Source of the DNA: Beroe ovata | Taxonomy: Eukaryota > Ctenophora > Nuda > Beroida > Beroidae | Direction: 5' to 3' | DNA length: 64,000 nucleotides | Assembly: GCA_946803715.1 (NCBI GenBank) | Contig: CAMPET010000011.1 | Location: forward strand, 494,941 to 558,940 | Shown here: piece by piece, positions 5,056 to 60,189 of the stretch | How positions within the stretch are numbered: position 1 is the stretch's first letter | Layout of the letters: each line of letters opens with the position of its first letter | Notes under the pieces: model-generated | Database searches by the model: none | Seen by the model: the letters and a program-made list of their open reading frames with translations, nothing else | What the model was told of the DNA's origin: nothing | Position numbers and translations under genes: made by a program

Positions 5056-5167
5056 GAGTAATGATTGTAGGATTTTACCATTACCTTGTAGGATTTTACC
5101 CTACCGTCGGTGCGCGCGATTTTCAATCCGCCAGCAAGGGTAGGGTGAAATCCTACAAGAGTAATGA
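5056..5167. mobile_element. MITE with TTGTAGGATTTTACC inverted ends, copy 1
   Basis: A 94-bp element (5065-5158) begins TTGTAGGATTTTACC and ends GGTAGGGTGAAATCCTACAA, which are inverted copies of about 19 bp. It is flanked by the 9-bp direct repeat GAGTAATGA (5056-5064 and 5159-5167). The left end is doubled (a second TTGTAGGATTTTACCCTACC starts at 5086). There is no coding capacity. The 9-bp target duplication suggests a Mutator-like origin by analogy, but no transposase is present to prove it. Confidence 0.85.
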
Positions 5168-50300: not shown

Positions 50301-53300
50301 GTCATCGTCCCGCGAAAAAACAAGTTTACCGATTTTGGTGTGTCCCATTGAATTTCGTGTTTTGCAGGTAATGCTTCCCACTGGTTAAAAATCGTGATTT
50401 GGGCGTGGCTTTATGCCGAGTATAAACTCTTCATGACCGTGACGAGGGTTCATATTTATAGTGAGATAGTAGGAGAGAAGATTTGGTGAAAAAATGGCGT
50501 CGTAAGTGCCAGTAAAGACTTCTTTAGAGACCCTTAAAAACGGTGTATAAAAGAGTGGGATTCACTTCACTTTTTACCGATACTCAGCTCAGAAAATCGA
50601 AGAAATTTTTTTGTTCTATTTCAATGTAAAGACCATGTATTCCCATGTATTTTGAGACGCTGAATCGATTCCCGGTCGAATTTTGGTCTTATCTCGCTTC
50701 CCTGAGGAGCTGTGTGCCATGTGACTTCGAACCTCAAGTCTAAGAAGAAATTGGAATTTATCCAATTTTTCCGACGAGATAGATCAAAAATTCTTACAGA
50801 ATTGGATTCTACGTCAAAAAATAGGCCAGAAACACTTATTACCAGTCATCGTCCCGCGAAAAAACAAGTTTACCGATTTTGGTGTGTCCCATTGAATTTC
50901 GTGTTTTGCAGGTAATGCTTCCCACTGGTTAAAAATCGTGATTTGGGCGTGGCTTTATGCCGAGTATAAACTCTTCATGACCGTGACGAGGGTTCATATT
51001 TATAGTGAGATAGTAGGAGAGAAGATTTGGTGAAAAAATGGCGTCGTAAGTGCCAGTTAAGACTTCATTAGAGACCCTTAAAAACAGTGTATAAAAGAGT
51101 GGGATTCACTTCACTTTCTACCGATACTCAGATCAGAAAACCGGAGAAAATTTTTTGTCATATTTTCATGCAAATACTACACATCCCCATGAATTTCTGG
51201 ACGCTAAATCGATTCCCGGTCGAATTTTGGCCCTATCTCGCTTTCCTGAGGAGCTGTATGTCATGTGACTTCGAACCTCATATCCAAGAAGAAATTGAAA
51301 TACAAAGCGTAATCTAAAGCCGGATGTAATTGCTTTCGGTACTTCGAATTCGGTACCCAATTTAAATTTGGATTCTTGCCGAACGATACAACTAGTAATC
51401 GAGTTGATTGAGATTCACAAGTTGTGATCATGATACACTATGCTTGTACAACCTGTGGTGACATACCTAAACAGGCATGAGAGGCATTGCTCTATTATAC
51501 CTCAATGTGCTAAACCAGTAAGTTAAGACATGGCTATGTTAGAACGTGTGATAATGAGCAGCTATGACGTCATTCAGTGCAATGTCACATCTCAATGACG
51601 TCATAATGAACAAACCACACTGACACTATTCTAGAAAACCACATGTCACACAGCACAGCTGTGTCATTAGCATGCAGAGTAGTGAATAAAACATAGCTGA
51701 CAGTCGATGCATGCATACTGCACGCTTTCATTAAGAATATCTCAAAGATGTAACTCAGTTTTTCATCATTTATAGTGCTAATTAAAGGTATACCTACTGT
51801 CCTTAAACGTGAAAGGTTATAATATTTCCTTGTGTTCGTATTCGAAAAATCATTCAGTAACAGTCAGACTTGAAAGGAAACCGCGGTCTTGTCATGTGTG
51901 GATGCATGTGTGTGCGTGTGTCTAATAGATTATGGATTGAATCAAGAATCGATCATTTTTGCTTGCTAACTATAATGATACTGGAATGATTCCTCTAAAC
52001 TACCTATCACTGACATCATCGATCGAAGTTGATCCTGCATATTTCCATGTTTACTCACCACAAGAGAGTTGGTGACTTTAGTGAATGCTATTCCCATAGT
52101 CATGAGGAAGAGAACGGTGTTTTGCTGGTATAGCTGAGACTGACTCTCCACCACTATCTTGTAGAACATGCCCGTGAGGAGGAGAATGGGAATTCCCGGG
52201 GATAGGACTGATGTGTCCTGGGGAGAAAACTATAATTTGTAACGAGGGGAGGGGTTAAAATGTCGAGAGTTTAAGAAAATTATGATTATCACGATGCAGA
52301 AAATTCATTCTCTAGTCTCAAAAAATCATCCAATATCGTCCATGGATCAAATTGATTTCCCATGAAAATAAAGGTCGCGTATGAGGTATATCTCATAGTC
52401 TGCTTCCATGATACTCACAGCTATTGTAGCTCCATTTTTCCCAATACCACCACTAAGGATAGAGTTCACATTTCCCGATAGTATGAACGCCCCGACCCCA
52501 CAAATTGTACTGAATATCAACATGAGGTGCTTCAACTGGAAACCTGTATAATGAGGATGTTTGAATGTGGTGGTAATTTATTATTCTCGTATCTCGTATC
52601 TCGTAAAGGACATTCAATTCACTTACCCTCAGTTATCTCATAATTCCACAATTCGCATCCAAATATCCCGGTATAAAACTGTACTCCTATCATGAACAAC
52701 TGTGCTTCTGTCACGTCAANGGGTGAGGAGGGGATAGGACTGATGTGTCCTGGGGGAAATGGGGTGAGGCGGGGACAGGACTGATGTGTCCTGGGGGAAA
52801 TGGGGTAAGGAGGGGACAGGACTGATGTGTCCTGGGGAGAAAATTATAATTTGTAACGAGGGGAGGGATTCTGGGGTTAAAAGGTCGAGAGTTTAAGAAA
52901 ATTATGATTATCACGATGCAGAAAATTGATTCTCTAGTCTCAAGAAATCATCCAATATCGTCCATGGATCAAATTGATTTCCCACGAAAATAAAGGTCGC
53001 GTATGAGGTATATCTCATAGTCTGCTCCCATGATACTCACAGCTATTGTAGCTCCATTTTTCCCGATACCACCACTTAGGATAGAGTTCACATTTCCCGA
53101 TAGTATGAACGCCCCGACCCCACAAATTGTACTGAATATCAACATGAGGTGCTTCAACTGGAAACCTGGGAAGTAGGGGGACATGAGTTGTGAGTAGAGT
53201 GTGAGCACAGAGGATGAGTACAGAGGGTGAGTATAGAGGGTGAGTATAGAGGATGAGTATAGAGGCTGAGTATAGAGGATGAGTACAGAGGATGAGTATA

Positions 53301-56800: not shown

Positions 56801-59137
56801 TATAGTGAGGGAGCATAGATGAGAATACTGAATAGTGGCAGTTAACTAGTCACGATTAAACGATTAAGTTGCTACTCACCGGTACGCCGAGCTTGTTTCC
56901 CGTCGATAGCATCCAAACTCTGGTAAAGGAAGAGACCCACTCCACAAGCAATGTATGCAAACGGCGGTGCCTGAGAGTGATTATTGTCAGGCGAAATTCC
57001 TCAATAAGATTGGGCAGGAGCTAGGCGGTGTTGATATTTGATGGCCCTTCACCTACATGATGATAGACTCAACGAAGTTACGAACTTAGTTAGGACCTTT
57101 CTGGTTTGGAGAAATATAAATTGAGCTTGCTAGAAATCGGGGTTATATTAAAGATGAGAGATTGTCAAAATCCTGTTACGCCGTTGTTAACTCTTCAATC
57201 CTGGCACGGTTTACCACTTCAATTAGATAATTGAGGAAAGGTATTTTGGAGTCATTTGTCGAGACATGGAATTTGTTTTAAAACGCGCGCGTGTGTGCTT
57301 ACATTTCGAGTAGTAACTAGAAAATTGGAACGGGATTGGAAGGTATGTACTACGTACATTTTCCATAAAACATACGTAGACATGTAGTGTAAGCGATGGT
57401 CAAAATTGAAGTCTGTACATCAGTGATGAAATACCTAGTGCTGATTGTTCGTTACATATGTCCAGTGTGCGAAGACGTCTACAATGGGATGCATATTTCG
57501 TGCATATATTCTACAAAAATGAATATTTCACACAGCTAAAATGTATATCCCAGCCCGAAGGTAAAAACTTCTATTGGGATCGATCAAATAAAATATTACT
57601 CAAATCTACACTCCTCTACATTTAAGCCAGCCCATGCAAATATGCCACATCAATAATCCCCCTCATTCCACTGCCATCCCTGCCTTCCCTCATCTGAACC
57701 TTTGCGGAGTAACTGCACATTTCCCGGACTCAACACATTATCGATAGGATTCACGTCACTATTCCTCAGCAACTGAATTTCTCCAGGCTTCTCCCCCTCC
57801 TTTCCGCCCAGTAGCACCCTCCTGCAATGCTGATGTTTGAAACACGTGTAATACTCGACAGTATCCTGGCAACGATCATTCTCATCCCTTTTCCAGGATC
57901 GATATTTCTGTCTGCAGTCCATGCCACATTCCTCCTCAACATAGCGTCCCTGACAAGCTGTCTGAGCAAGGTTGAAGAGGGGTGACGGGTCACATGCAAA
58001 CTCTCCACACGGCGCAGGGCAGTCGCCATCATCCCTTCTCCAGTTGTAACGGCCGGGAGGCATGCCTTTTTTCCGGCACCAACCCACAAACACCCACCGT
58101 CCACACGAACTACAGTCGTAAGTCTCAGAGGGGGTGCCGATGTTTGCAGATGCGGGGGTGTAAAGCGTGTAGTCAATACTGCACATCCCACCAATACAAT
58201 CTTTCTCTAGCAGTGTGATGAAACAATTGCCACTGTATTTCGTGAAGATGAGTGACTTCTCCTTACATTCGGCATCGCAAATCCCATATGGTACCTCGCC
58301 CGAACAGGCATTGGTTGTATCACATACTTGAGCAGGACACTGGACAGGATCACAGTTGTCACGGTCTGTAAGAGTCCGGGTATACAGGATACCAGACTTT
58401 CCAAAAGACGTACATTCCGAGCCGAGAACAGCTTCAAATCTCCCACATCCCTCGCAATCTATCATGGTCGATGAGGAAGTGGCAATAGGAAAGAGGTGAA
58501 TGAATAGGATAAACATACCAGGCAACATTTCAGAAGCGGCTGCAAATCCGGGTAAGCAACTTGTGTGAGTGAAAATTGTCTCAGTTGAGTTGTTGTGCTT
58601 TGAAGTTTAACACGTGATGGTGCACATGAATATTTATTGGGTGGCAGCAAATTGTTGTTTTGACAGGCAATATTGTTATGACTACTTTATACTACTGCTA
58701 AATATCAGATGTTTGCATAGAATATAATCAAAAACATGATACCATGGTAAGTCATCACCAGCAAACTTACTGTGGCATGGCCATTACTGCTGTAGTAAAC
58801 CAAGATGAGAGTTGTGGACACATTGATGATGAGTCCCACTAATGTTATCATGTTAGGTGCAAGCCATATGGGAACTCTTTCCACTAGCCAGCACCAAAAT
58901 ACCTGCAATGGTTATTGGTAAACTTATTCATCCATTATTGCAAAATATCTATACAATAAGATGCAAGTAGTTAATAGAGCTGCAAGCTCCATTGAAACAA
59001 ACATTCAACATTGAAAAGACCTGCATATATGGATCCAGGATCGTTTTTCCAGAACTTTTGTAGATATGACGACGTAGGTTTTCCAATTGAAATTGATTGA
59101 GGATACAGTTGGTTGTTGATTCATTCTTAGTCTTCAT
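47323..59137 (-). CDS. CEPT1-like: Choline/ethanolamine phosphotransferase (CEPT1/CHPT1-like)
   Basis: Eleven exons, 463 aa: 59021-59137, 58771-58902, 56880-56970, 54220-54309, 53919-54024, 53441-53535, 53041-53165, 52059-52217, 48586-48714, 47673-47768, 47323-47574. All phases match (1392 nt). The CDP-alcohol phosphotransferase signature DGx2ARx8Gx3Dx3D is intact: [18 protein letters not shown] continued by DHGCD. Flanking blocks [52 protein letters not shown] and VAHMTKSPP are typical of the family. It is a multi-pass ER/Golgi membrane enzyme that joins CDP-choline or CDP-ethanolamine to diacylglycerol, the last step of the Kennedy pathway. The C-terminus is a Ser/Arg-rich tail unlike vertebrate forms. 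Exons 6 and 7 occur twice (second copies 52627-52719 partial and 52419-52543) around the N at 52720. Intron 2 holds an intronless gene. Confidence 0.93.
48715..52058. other. CEPT1-like intron 8: repeats, no gene
   Basis: A 3.3-kb intron with GACACCAGTA-type repeats (about 49430-49500), a CA array (49600-49690) and a 0.54-kb tandem repeat (49965-51310). The identical 67-codon frames at 50168 and 50712 arise from this tandem repeat. Confidence 0.6.
49965..51310. repeat. About 0.54-kb tandem repeat, 2.5 copies
   Basis: Units start GCGTCGTAAGTGCCAGT at about 49965, 50498 and 51041. Units 1 and 2 look nearly identical apart from about 11 extra bases near the start of unit 2; unit 3 is shorter and more diverged. 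No terminal inverted repeats or transposase were seen. Confidence 0.9.
52419..52543 (-). pseudogene. Second copy of CEPT1-like exon 7
   Basis: 125 bp encoding the same [22 protein letters not shown] segment as 53041-53165, with acceptor and donor intact. In the genome as written, exon 7 would be present twice in tandem. The intron next to this copy lacks the 13-bp minisatellite seen beside the other, so the two copies look like two alleles of different repeat length. Confidence 0.75.
52627..52719 (-). pseudogene. Second, truncated copy of CEPT1-like exon 6
   Basis: Matches the 3' part of exon 6 (53441-53535) nearly base for base, including the donor, but runs into the N at 52720. Together with 52419-52543 it duplicates exons 6-7. 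Probably an unmerged allele. Confidence 0.75.
52727..52840. repeat. Triplicated start of CEPT1-like exon 8
   Basis: Three units of about 43 bp with GGGGACAGGACTGATGTGTCC and TGGGGGAAATGGGGT. They resemble the exon-8 acceptor region (52200-52225). Confidence 0.75.
53200..53433. repeat. 13-bp minisatellite, about 18 copies
   Basis: Unit GRTGAGTAYAGAG, 234 bp in total, filling most of CEPT1-like intron 6 (53166-53440). Open frames across it encode only a repeated [12 protein letters not shown]-type peptide. Confidence 0.95.
53800..53887. repeat. CA microsatellite with 1-N gap at 53819
   Basis: (CA)n run in the intron between CEPT1-like exons 5 and 6. Confidence 0.9.
54779..54964. repeat. CA-rich microsatellite
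   Basis: Interrupted ACACAGAC/ACACAC array in CEPT1-like intron 3 (54310-56879). The rest of that intron is AT-rich with no recognisable exon. Confidence 0.85.
57650..58528 (-). CDS. Secreted Cys-rich protein with duplicated domain, intronless
   Basis: A 292-residue uninterrupted frame inside intron 2 (56971-58770) of the CEPT1-like gene, same strand. The start [20 protein letters not shown] is a convincing signal peptide; there is no later membrane segment. The body consists of two related halves. Half 1 (about 24-110) begins [19 protein letters not shown] and half 2 (about 138-228) begins [17 protein letters not shown]. Both then show G..R..D.DC.P..C....CD....AC.G......C...C..K and a final pair of cysteines. 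A short Arg/Gly-rich tail follows with two QLLR motifs. The spacing loosely recalls thrombospondin type-1-like Cys modules but the WSxW core is not evident, so I leave it unnamed. Confidence 0.8.
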   Translation of the reverse strand: MLPGMFILFIHLFPIATSSSTMIDCEGCGRFEAVLGSECTSFGKSGILYTRTLTDRDNCDPVQCPAQVCDTTNACSGEVPYGICDAECKEKSLIFTKYSGNCFITLLEKDCIGGMCSIDYTLYTPASANIGTPSETYDCSSCGRWVFVGWCRKKGMPPGRYNWRRDDGDCPAPCGEFACDPSPLFNLAQTACQGRYVEEECGMDCRQKYRSWKRDENDRCQDTVEYYTCFKHQHCRRVLLGGKEGEKPGEIQLLRNSDVNPIDNVLSPGNVQLLRKGSDEGRQGWQWNEGDY

Positions 59138-59413
59138 AGCTCACTCTATACTAAAGATATTGATATCATTTATCAAATGACAGATTAACTATTTGGGAAT
59201 CTTTCATAACATAAGTCCTGAAACACAGAAAATATTATGCACCTACCTATAATAACAAGATTAAACCATATGTTTTAGGAGAATAACTTTTTGCAACAAA
59301 AGAAATATTGAATAAATATAATCTTTGATTAGAAAGTCCTACAATCCTAGACTGCAAATTTTTCACTTCTAATAGCATAGCAGAATAGGATCTAAACGTT
59401 GTACTGTTCTCTT

Positions 59414-59450
59414 ATCATTGATGAGCCAAACTTTAAGCCCAACAAGTCAT
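59414..59450 (-). promoter_or_regulatory. SECIS element of the selenoprotein W gene
   Basis: On the minus strand, 41 nt after the TAA, the transcript reads AUGA (59450-59447), then C UUGUUGGGCU, an apical loop UAAAGUU with the AA pair, GGCUCAUCAA, and UGAU (59417-59414). The two arms pair over 9-10 bp (UUG-CAA, UGGGCU-GGCUCA with one U.U). AUGA opposite UGAU is the non-canonical SECIS quartet, and the 11-12 nt from quartet to AA fits the usual spacing. Flanking GUUC/GAAC can extend the basal helix. Confidence 0.88.
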
Positions 59451-59490
59451 CAAGTGAGGAACAATAGCAGTCAAATCCCAGTAAGTAAAT

Positions 59491-59772
59491 TTATAAGATA
59501 GAGCAGCTGGACTCTTGTAGCTTTATCTCTGGTATTGGTTGATTATTAGATAATGCTTCAATAGCTTTTGAGATATCTTCATAGCAAGGAAAATTTCCTG
59601 TCTCGAGTTTGCTGAAAATGAGCTTGCCATCTACAACAACTTCAAAACTAGAGGATCTTCCAACTTTTCCAGAGCACTCAGCTGAAGAGACATTCTCCCT
59701 AATGGTTGTTGCAAGTTGCCTATACTTTGGGGCGTACCCTCAGGCACCACAATACTCCACCTCCACTTTCAT
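59491..59772 (-). CDS. SELENOW: Selenoprotein W (UGA at codon 11 read as Sec)
   Basis: A single exon of 94 codons including the stop, interrupted only by an in-frame TGA at 59742-59740. Reading that as selenocysteine (U) gives MKVEVEYCGAUGYAPKYRQL at the N-terminus, the Rdx-family CxxU redox motif, then SFEVVVDGKLIFSKLETG, which matches the F.V.V.G.LI.SK segment of vertebrate SELENOW. The protein is 93 residues, close to the usual 87-90. A SECIS hairpin lies directly downstream, which makes Sec insertion likely. SELENOW is a small cytosolic thioredoxin-fold oxidoreductase. It is upstream of, and on the same strand as, the CEPT1-like gene (354 bp between its stop and that ATG). Confidence 0.96.
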
Positions 59773-60189
59773 AGCTCTAAATCTTGATTTTGTACTCTAT
59801 GTACAGCTATCCTGTGTGCGTGAAGTTGAATAGCCATTATTGGTATATAGGAAATATGCATTCCGCCAATAGTAAAATTAAACAACTTGGTTATTTGTGG
59901 TGAATGAATCCAAAAGGTTTATATAAATGCTGTCATTTGCATTCATGACCTCACATGCTGCCCATTGACCTCAGTATCAAAGGATCTTATTTATTATTTT
60001 TATCTGTAGTTGGATGACATTATCACTGCCGCATATTATTGTAGTAGAACAGAATAGAGTCCAAATAGAATAGAATTGAATTGAATTGAATTGAATTGAG
60101 TAATATCCAAATAACCCACAGAGAAATAGCATACAAAAAATTGACCCATATCAAATATAGAAATTAGTGATTATTAACCAAGAGAAACA

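Follow-up and report, generated by a model that had tools for sequence, protein, structure and literature searches.

Within the window (the whole 64,000-nucleotide stretch of Beroe ovata DNA that we analysed), a short frame on the minus strand is interrupted by a single TGA. Is this TGA a selenocysteine (Sec) codon, and if so, which selenoprotein does the gene encode? An earlier note on this DNA had proposed an intact SELENOW gene with a SECIS element, which would be missed by ordinary ORF calling because of a TGA at codon 11. We are confident that the locus is a working animal selenoprotein gene, and that its product is the CaaX-bearing, Sec-containing form of the MIEN1/Rdx12 branch, which is known as SelW2.

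The frame can be read directly from the sequence. It consists of 93 codons and a TAA stop, and the TGA at codon 11 is the only in-frame interruption, as the earlier note had described. With U for the TGA, the translation is MKVEVEYCGAUGYAPKY...SSCSIL. The coding part of the gene is intronless, and its features are:

59491..59772, minus strand: coding frame of a SelW2/MIEN1-type selenoprotein, 93 codons plus TAA, with the ATG at 59772-59770 and the TAA at 59493-59491 (direct reading and a match to Pfam Rdx)
59740..59742, minus strand: TGA codon 11 (59742-59740), read as selenocysteine (by reading, and by the W, or TGA by code 4, at this site in homologues)
59740..59751, minus strand: C-G-A-U redox motif, codons 8-11 (by reading)
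59494..59505, minus strand: C-S-I-L, the C-terminal CaaX prenylation box, codons 90-93 (by reading, and from homologues)

If the TGA is translated as a residue, then the frame matches Pfam's Rdx family at 64.1 bits (cut-off 22.6), which is the top score among the five Rdx matches in the genome. The C-G-A-U motif is within this thioredoxin-like domain, so reading the TGA as Sec does yield the CxxU motif of an Rdx protein, as had been claimed. In a selenoprotein gene, we look for a UGA at a redox position in a frame that is otherwise open, and this is what we find.

We then asked what homologous proteins have at this site. In a search with no bias towards W, the query had cysteine at the Sec site, and just 15 candidates were scored. 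All 15 homologues (34-75% identity) have tryptophan at the site, which is TGA by code 4 and is protein-level evidence that the UGA is kept; none of them has the cysteine that the earlier note had named as evidence against a Sec-encoding gene. A profile search gave 668 proteins. Among the best 120 of these 668, the site holds W in 111, a gap in four, Y in two, and C, Q, or S in one each, but 15 of the 16 rows behind the profile have W at the site, so the ranking favours W and the share of 111 in 120 should not be taken as a census. W is rare elsewhere in the domain: at no other position among the domain's 72 is it present in more than two of the 120 listed rows. Only nine of the listed rows carry database names, and these are the same nine that lack W. 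The sole C belongs to a 'MIEN1-like' protein from Sinocyclocheilus. The rows from Boleophthalmus and Pocillopora (P0118 and P0119) start directly after the site, as expected if the gene caller stopped at a TGA. The rows from lamprey, lobster, newt, medaka, and frog (two rows) have other letters or gaps. Because W is rare elsewhere in the domain, and because two solved animal relatives have Cys at this position, we believe that gene callers have read a TGA as Trp and that the W in the homologues is very probably TGA. (A scan of viral contigs with the window protein's family found no relative.)

Those 111 W residues would also be seen if this organism read TGA as Trp, or as sense in general, and the W of the homologues were a true tryptophan. 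We rejected this change of code, to which we give next to no credence. The two solved animal relatives carry Cys at the site; among the named rows, P0118 and P0119 begin past it and the remainder show different letters or gaps; furthermore, the tRNA with a UCA anticodon that we examined is tRNA-Sec, and a SECIS element is present (both are described below).

A selenoprotein gene also needs its SECIS, and two more features describe the region downstream of the stop codon:

59400..59464, minus strand: SECIS element in the 3' UTR, with AUGA at 59450-59447, AAA at 59434-59432, and UGAU at 59417-59414
59135..59137, minus strand: ATG of the likely next gene downstream, which is choline/ethanolamine phosphotransferase-like (start codon by reading alone)

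The ATG of the next gene (at 59137) is on the same strand as the window gene and is 353 nt past the TAA, and it probably bounds the 3' UTR to within about 354 nt. We take the downstream gene to be a choline/ethanolamine phosphotransferase from its APNMIT motif and a second protein motif. A phosphotransferase-like exon is present there in two near-identical copies (window positions 52300-53140, approximately, on the minus strand, with GKN at 53064 and 52442). The similarity of the two copies suggests a local duplication inside the gene downstream of the selenoprotein.

The hairpin that was said to begin 41 nt past the stop, with an AUGA/UGAU quartet and apical AA, is present. The A of AUGA is the 41st base after the TAA, and the AAA is twelve bases beyond the AUGA. 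We scanned both strands of the 64 kb for SECIS-like structures (AUGA, 10-13 nt, AA, and UGA, plus helix energies). This hairpin was the best of 41 candidates (23 and 18 on the two strands), with a score of -14.8, and the next best scored -13.3. In random first-order Markov sequence with the same dinucleotide make-up, a score of -14.8 was reached at 85 places per 5.12 Mb, or 0.006 per 354 nt. Three of the eight pairs in helix I and one of the ten pairs in helix II are non-standard. The folding energy is -17.7 kcal/mol (z = -2.32), which is a mild signal, as 5 of 200 shuffles were as good.

Rfam did not report this hairpin. With Rfam's own cut-offs there was no match in the whole 64-kb window, and a permissive search of 59300-59900 gave five weak matches, none of which was to SECIS. 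Across the genome, with 133 of 1316 candidates scored, Rfam's SECIS_1 model matched eight places, with a maximum of 34.2 bits, and none of the eight was above the cut-off of 35. None of these eight matches, from the same 133 scored candidates, was at the four Rdx/SelT genes, the window gene included. Because the elements of all four Rdx/SelT genes go unreported, we consider Rfam's silence to be weak evidence, but we still count it against the hairpin. Our scan did give candidates behind the other three genes: -17.1 for L002, -13.1 for L003, and -12.6 for the SelT exon (L005). In random sequence, these scores were reached at rates of 0.005, 0.030, and 0.036 per 1000 nt, respectively, and about 1.4 kb was scanned for each.

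We also built a covariance model on nine SECIS candidates from elsewhere in the genome, with the window hairpin excluded. Three of these came from the SECIS-like scan and six were Rfam SECIS_1 matches under the cut-off. (The two weakest of the eight SECIS_1 places, L033 and L034, were kept out of the model.) Four of the six SECIS_1-derived elements adjoin frames that we named by reading, namely Sep15, SelH, GPx, and a SelS-like frame without TGA; the other two (L027 and L029) have no neighbouring frame that we could name. The paired structure was drawn by hand after the sequences were inspected. AUGA, AAA, and UGAU are invariant in all nine sequences, in part since we searched by that pattern. 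In helix II, 94.4% of cells pair and 10 of 10 pairs show changes on both sides; in helix I, just 47.2% of cells pair. The covariation score for the whole structure was matched by none of 500 shuffles and was abolished by sliding the partners.

With this model, the best match in the 64 kb is the window hairpin, at 22.4 bits (with a rough E-value of 0.013), and the next best place has 14.0 bits. The model also matches an element that was not used to build it, 175 nt past the stop of the selenophosphate synthetase gene SPS2 (29.8 bits), and it gives L034 17.9 bits. The earlier note had proposed a check with SECIS models, and the outcome is split: the model from the same genome favours the hairpin, and Rfam does not report it. 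The hairpin has the AUGA / AA / UGAN core and the helices I and II of a 3' UTR SECIS, and it is beyond chance. Both parts of the Sec signal, the frame and a hairpin that is ranked first by both the scan and the covariance model, are present, as had been argued.

The SECIS-like element L031:4978-5052 (plus strand) is about 155 nt behind the SelS-like frame (...GDYNPLMGSGGSGGLLPSSCINNST), in which no TGA is visible. Perhaps its Sec exon is elsewhere, or Sec has been lost.

Part of the machinery for Sec insertion is also visible in the genome. The tRNA-Sec, which the earlier note had suggested looking for outside the window, is there: it scores 70.1 bits (cut-off 47) and by reading has a UCA anticodon. 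The elongation factor eEFSec is a single 524-amino-acid frame, with 206.5 bits against TIGR00475 (under its cut-off of 242.25) and 547 bits against a solved eEFSec. Among the 120 relatives listed, its best named one is from another ctenophore, Bolinopsis microptera (75% identity), and the next named animal is Octopus sinensis (55% identity). SPS2 has 221 bits (cut-off 125). An exon upstream of it, which we joined by eye, reads TDFTKLKGUGCKV (where U is TGA), so SPS2 seems to be a selenoprotein itself.

SepSecS was not matched in exon-wise searches of the genome with PF05889, TIGR03531, or a typed human sequence. Similarly, SBP2 was not recognised among six L7Ae-family matches from exon-wise searches, and a typed human sequence gave no match. 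Empty answers from the typed human sequences are uninformative without a positive control. Because these searches were run exon by exon, we describe SepSecS and SBP2 as "not found" and not as "absent." A KTI12/PSTK-like frame (L044) was tried as PSTK and had no match in the PDB.

By reading, we named further selenoprotein-like frames with TGA for SelH, GPx, and Sep15, as well as an exon of SelT. The SelH-like frame (HCKSUS; L030:4551-4994, plus strand) apparently also ends in UGA, which lies 21 nt upstream of the AUGA in the SECIS of this frame; one and the same message would then use UGA for Sec and for stop. The available text of PMC3473315 states that virtually no TGA serves as a stop in selenoprotein genes.

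Could the window gene be a recently dead copy, with a TGA that is a nonsense mutation and a hairpin that arose by chance? The TGA is exactly at the active-site position, where all 15 homologues have a W that is probably TGA. An intronless frame, the silence of Rfam, and the exon-wise searches in which SepSecS and SBP2 were not found would each fit a dead copy, but apart from the TGA the frame is open, with 74-75% identity to its nearest homologue over the full length, and the SECIS is top-ranked in the window. We rejected the pseudogene as very improbable given the position of the TGA, the open and conserved frame, and the first-ranked SECIS.

We propose instead that the gene is expressed as a selenoprotein. 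The SECIS in the 3' UTR, via a SECIS-binding protein and eEFSec, would recruit Sec-tRNA, and the ribosome would decode the UGA at codon 11 as selenocysteine. The product would be a thioredoxin-like redox protein of 93 residues whose active site is CxxU.

Which selenoprotein is it? The closest solved protein is MIEN1 (also known as Rdx12 or C17orf37; PDB 2ljk), with a match of 66.1 bits (E = 2.6e-17) over residues 2-93. Mouse SelW (2npb) matches at 30.5 bits (E = 3.6e-6) over residues 2-61. The window protein thus has the Rdx domain and CxxU of SelW2 and is closer to MIEN1/Rdx12 than to SelW1, which is not its best match. The earlier note had claimed a full-length, Sec-bearing SELENOW. The selenoprotein stands, but we dropped the name, given 30.5 bits for SelW versus 66.1 bits for MIEN1. 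Judging by its sequence and its CaaX box, the window protein is in the SelW2/Rdx12/MIEN1 branch rather than being SELENOW (SelW1). To our knowledge, SelW1 does not have a CaaX box.

An AlphaFold2 model of the window protein has a pLDDT of 89 (and under 50 for the last five residues). When the PDB was searched for similar folds, and the results were ranked by E-value, 2ljk was first and SelW was seventh; the fold alone cannot separate MIEN1, SelW, and bacterial Rdx proteins, because their TM-scores are alike (0.66-0.75 by query length in the first 16 rows). We also made a quick tree from 54 rows that were hand-picked from 122; it has few columns, and 24 of its 51 inner branches are open. In this tree, MIEN1 is in a set of nine rows (SH-aLRT 97), together with five W-bearing rows that end in CVIL, CVIM, or CIIM and the rows from Oryzias, Sinocyclocheilus, and Boleophthalmus. 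The window gene pairs with P0002 (97). The fold search with the predicted structure and the tree also favour the SelW2/MIEN1 branch, though weakly.

That the window gene is instead an orthologue of SELENOW (SelW1) seems improbable to us. It shares the Rdx domain with CxxU, the GA-(C/U)-GY letters around the site, and the 30.5-bit match with 2npb, but the SelW match ends at residue 61 and the stronger match to MIEN1 continues to the last residue. Also, MIEN1 is inside the nine-row SelW2-like set and SelW is a far outlier in the tree, although the SelW row has 63 residues and a very long branch, so its placement is unsure.

The assignment to the SelW2/MIEN1 branch does not imply the same function as in humans. 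When we read the translation for YxxL/I, following the ITAM consensus, the complete ITAM of MIEN1 was not there: there is only half of it (YRQL) and no second YxxL/I. The signalling role of human MIEN1 is therefore not transferable to the window protein.

At the C-terminus, the CVIL end of MIEN1 aligns with CSIL of the window protein. All 15 homologues from the search with the Cys-bearing query have a CaaX box: 12 end in C-x-[IV]-[LMV], and the other three have W directly after the box. A CaaX-like end is present in 95 of the 120 listed profile rows, including 10 with W directly after the box. Most of the 25 listed rows without such an end (22 of 25) are 78-83 residues long. From these counts, the CaaX box and the Sec site appear to have long gone together in the SelW2/MIEN1 branch. 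The 10 rows with W and further residues straight after the CaaX are P0008, P0012, P0014, P0026, P0029, P0030, P0033, P0035, P0048, and P0059. It is as if, in these 10 of the 95 proteins, UGA served as the stop following an earlier UGA for Sec.

The genome contains prenyltransferases, namely FTase beta and an exon of GGTase-I beta, and a terminal L in a CaaX box favours GGTase-I. Perhaps the SelW2 of the window is geranylgeranylated. If so, geranylgeranyltransferase-I would add a lipid at C90 of the CSIL box, and the lipid anchor would place the redox site on the inner face of a membrane. The protein would presumably have a redox partner. For the human protein, the available text of PMC3527542 describes the CVIL end of MIEN1, its geranylation, and its ITAM. 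In the open literature that we searched (subscription journals were mostly outside the scope), there was no paper on a prenylated selenoprotein or on a SelW2 with a CaaX box.

Besides the window gene, two Sec-Rdx frames (L002 and L003) are present in the genome and match Pfam Rdx at 59.2 and 55.1 bits. L002 ends in ...QIDPQ and L003 ends in ...RISKL, so neither has a CaaX box. To judge from these C-termini, two soluble Sec-Rdx forms appear to coexist in this genome with a single anchored one. The 3' UTR of L002 contains two successive SECIS-like elements for one Sec codon (L036:4959-5034 and 5096-5164, minus strand; C31 21958-22163). Our covariance model gives them 39.8 bits (this element was used in building the model) and 28.9 bits (unused). 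A SelW1 with two SECIS elements has already been published for Ciona, according to the available text of PMC2874816. Downstream of L002 is a partial tandem copy (L004, with L036:3537-3612 on the minus strand), which has no in-frame ATG and has an N near its joint. The first SECIS of L002 is unmatched in L004 and the second is matched at 24.4 bits. These observations suggest that L004 is a broken copy or an assembly fault.

Sec-containing SelW2 proteins in animals are already known. According to the parts of PMC3316567 available to us, the SelW2 of bony fish, frog, and elephant shark is a selenoprotein, mammals have only the Cys-bearing Rdx12, and Rdx12 is proposed to have arisen when SelW2 was duplicated before the amphibian split. 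SelW1 and SelW2, or SelW, are described from flatworms, Trichoplax, Ciona, sponge, and others in the available text of PMC3828610, PMC2874816, and PMC3473315. For the ctenophore Mnemiopsis, the available text of PMC9925728 reports GPX and does not mention SelW. What we add is a better name for the window gene, the signal for a lipid anchor, and the gene's kin.

The locus is a clean and checkable selenoprotein gene from what appears to be a deep animal lineage, and standard gene calling truncates genes of this type at the UGA. Provided that the CaaX box is functional, a prenyl group would tether a Sec redox centre to a membrane, and human MIEN1 could be read as the Cys descendant of such a protein. 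We lean slightly towards the view that the form with both Sec and CaaX is ancestral in animals, and that human MIEN1, which is prenylated and linked to cancer, is a former selenoprotein that lost its selenium and kept its lipid anchor. If this is true, the SelW2/MIEN1 branch would be a wide group of lipidated selenoproteins, most of which lack annotation, since their genes are hidden or cut short by the UGA. The family also offers a concrete comparison of Sec with Cys and of anchored with soluble forms.

Among known proteins, SELENOW (2npb) shares the Rdx fold, the CxxU motif, and a small size with the window protein, but its match is weaker (30.5 bits over residues 2-61). MIEN1 (2ljk) is similar over the full length of the window protein and has the same thioredoxin-like fold and a CaaX end, but it has Cys where the window protein has Sec, and its first 25 residues are outside the match. 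SelW2 and the window protein have in common the Sec in CxxU and the Rdx domain; where homologues group with named rows from fish, the Sec site holds W and the last four residues are CVIL, CVIM, or CIIM. Unlike these, the window gene is from a ctenophore, its coding part is intronless, and its protein ends in CSIL.
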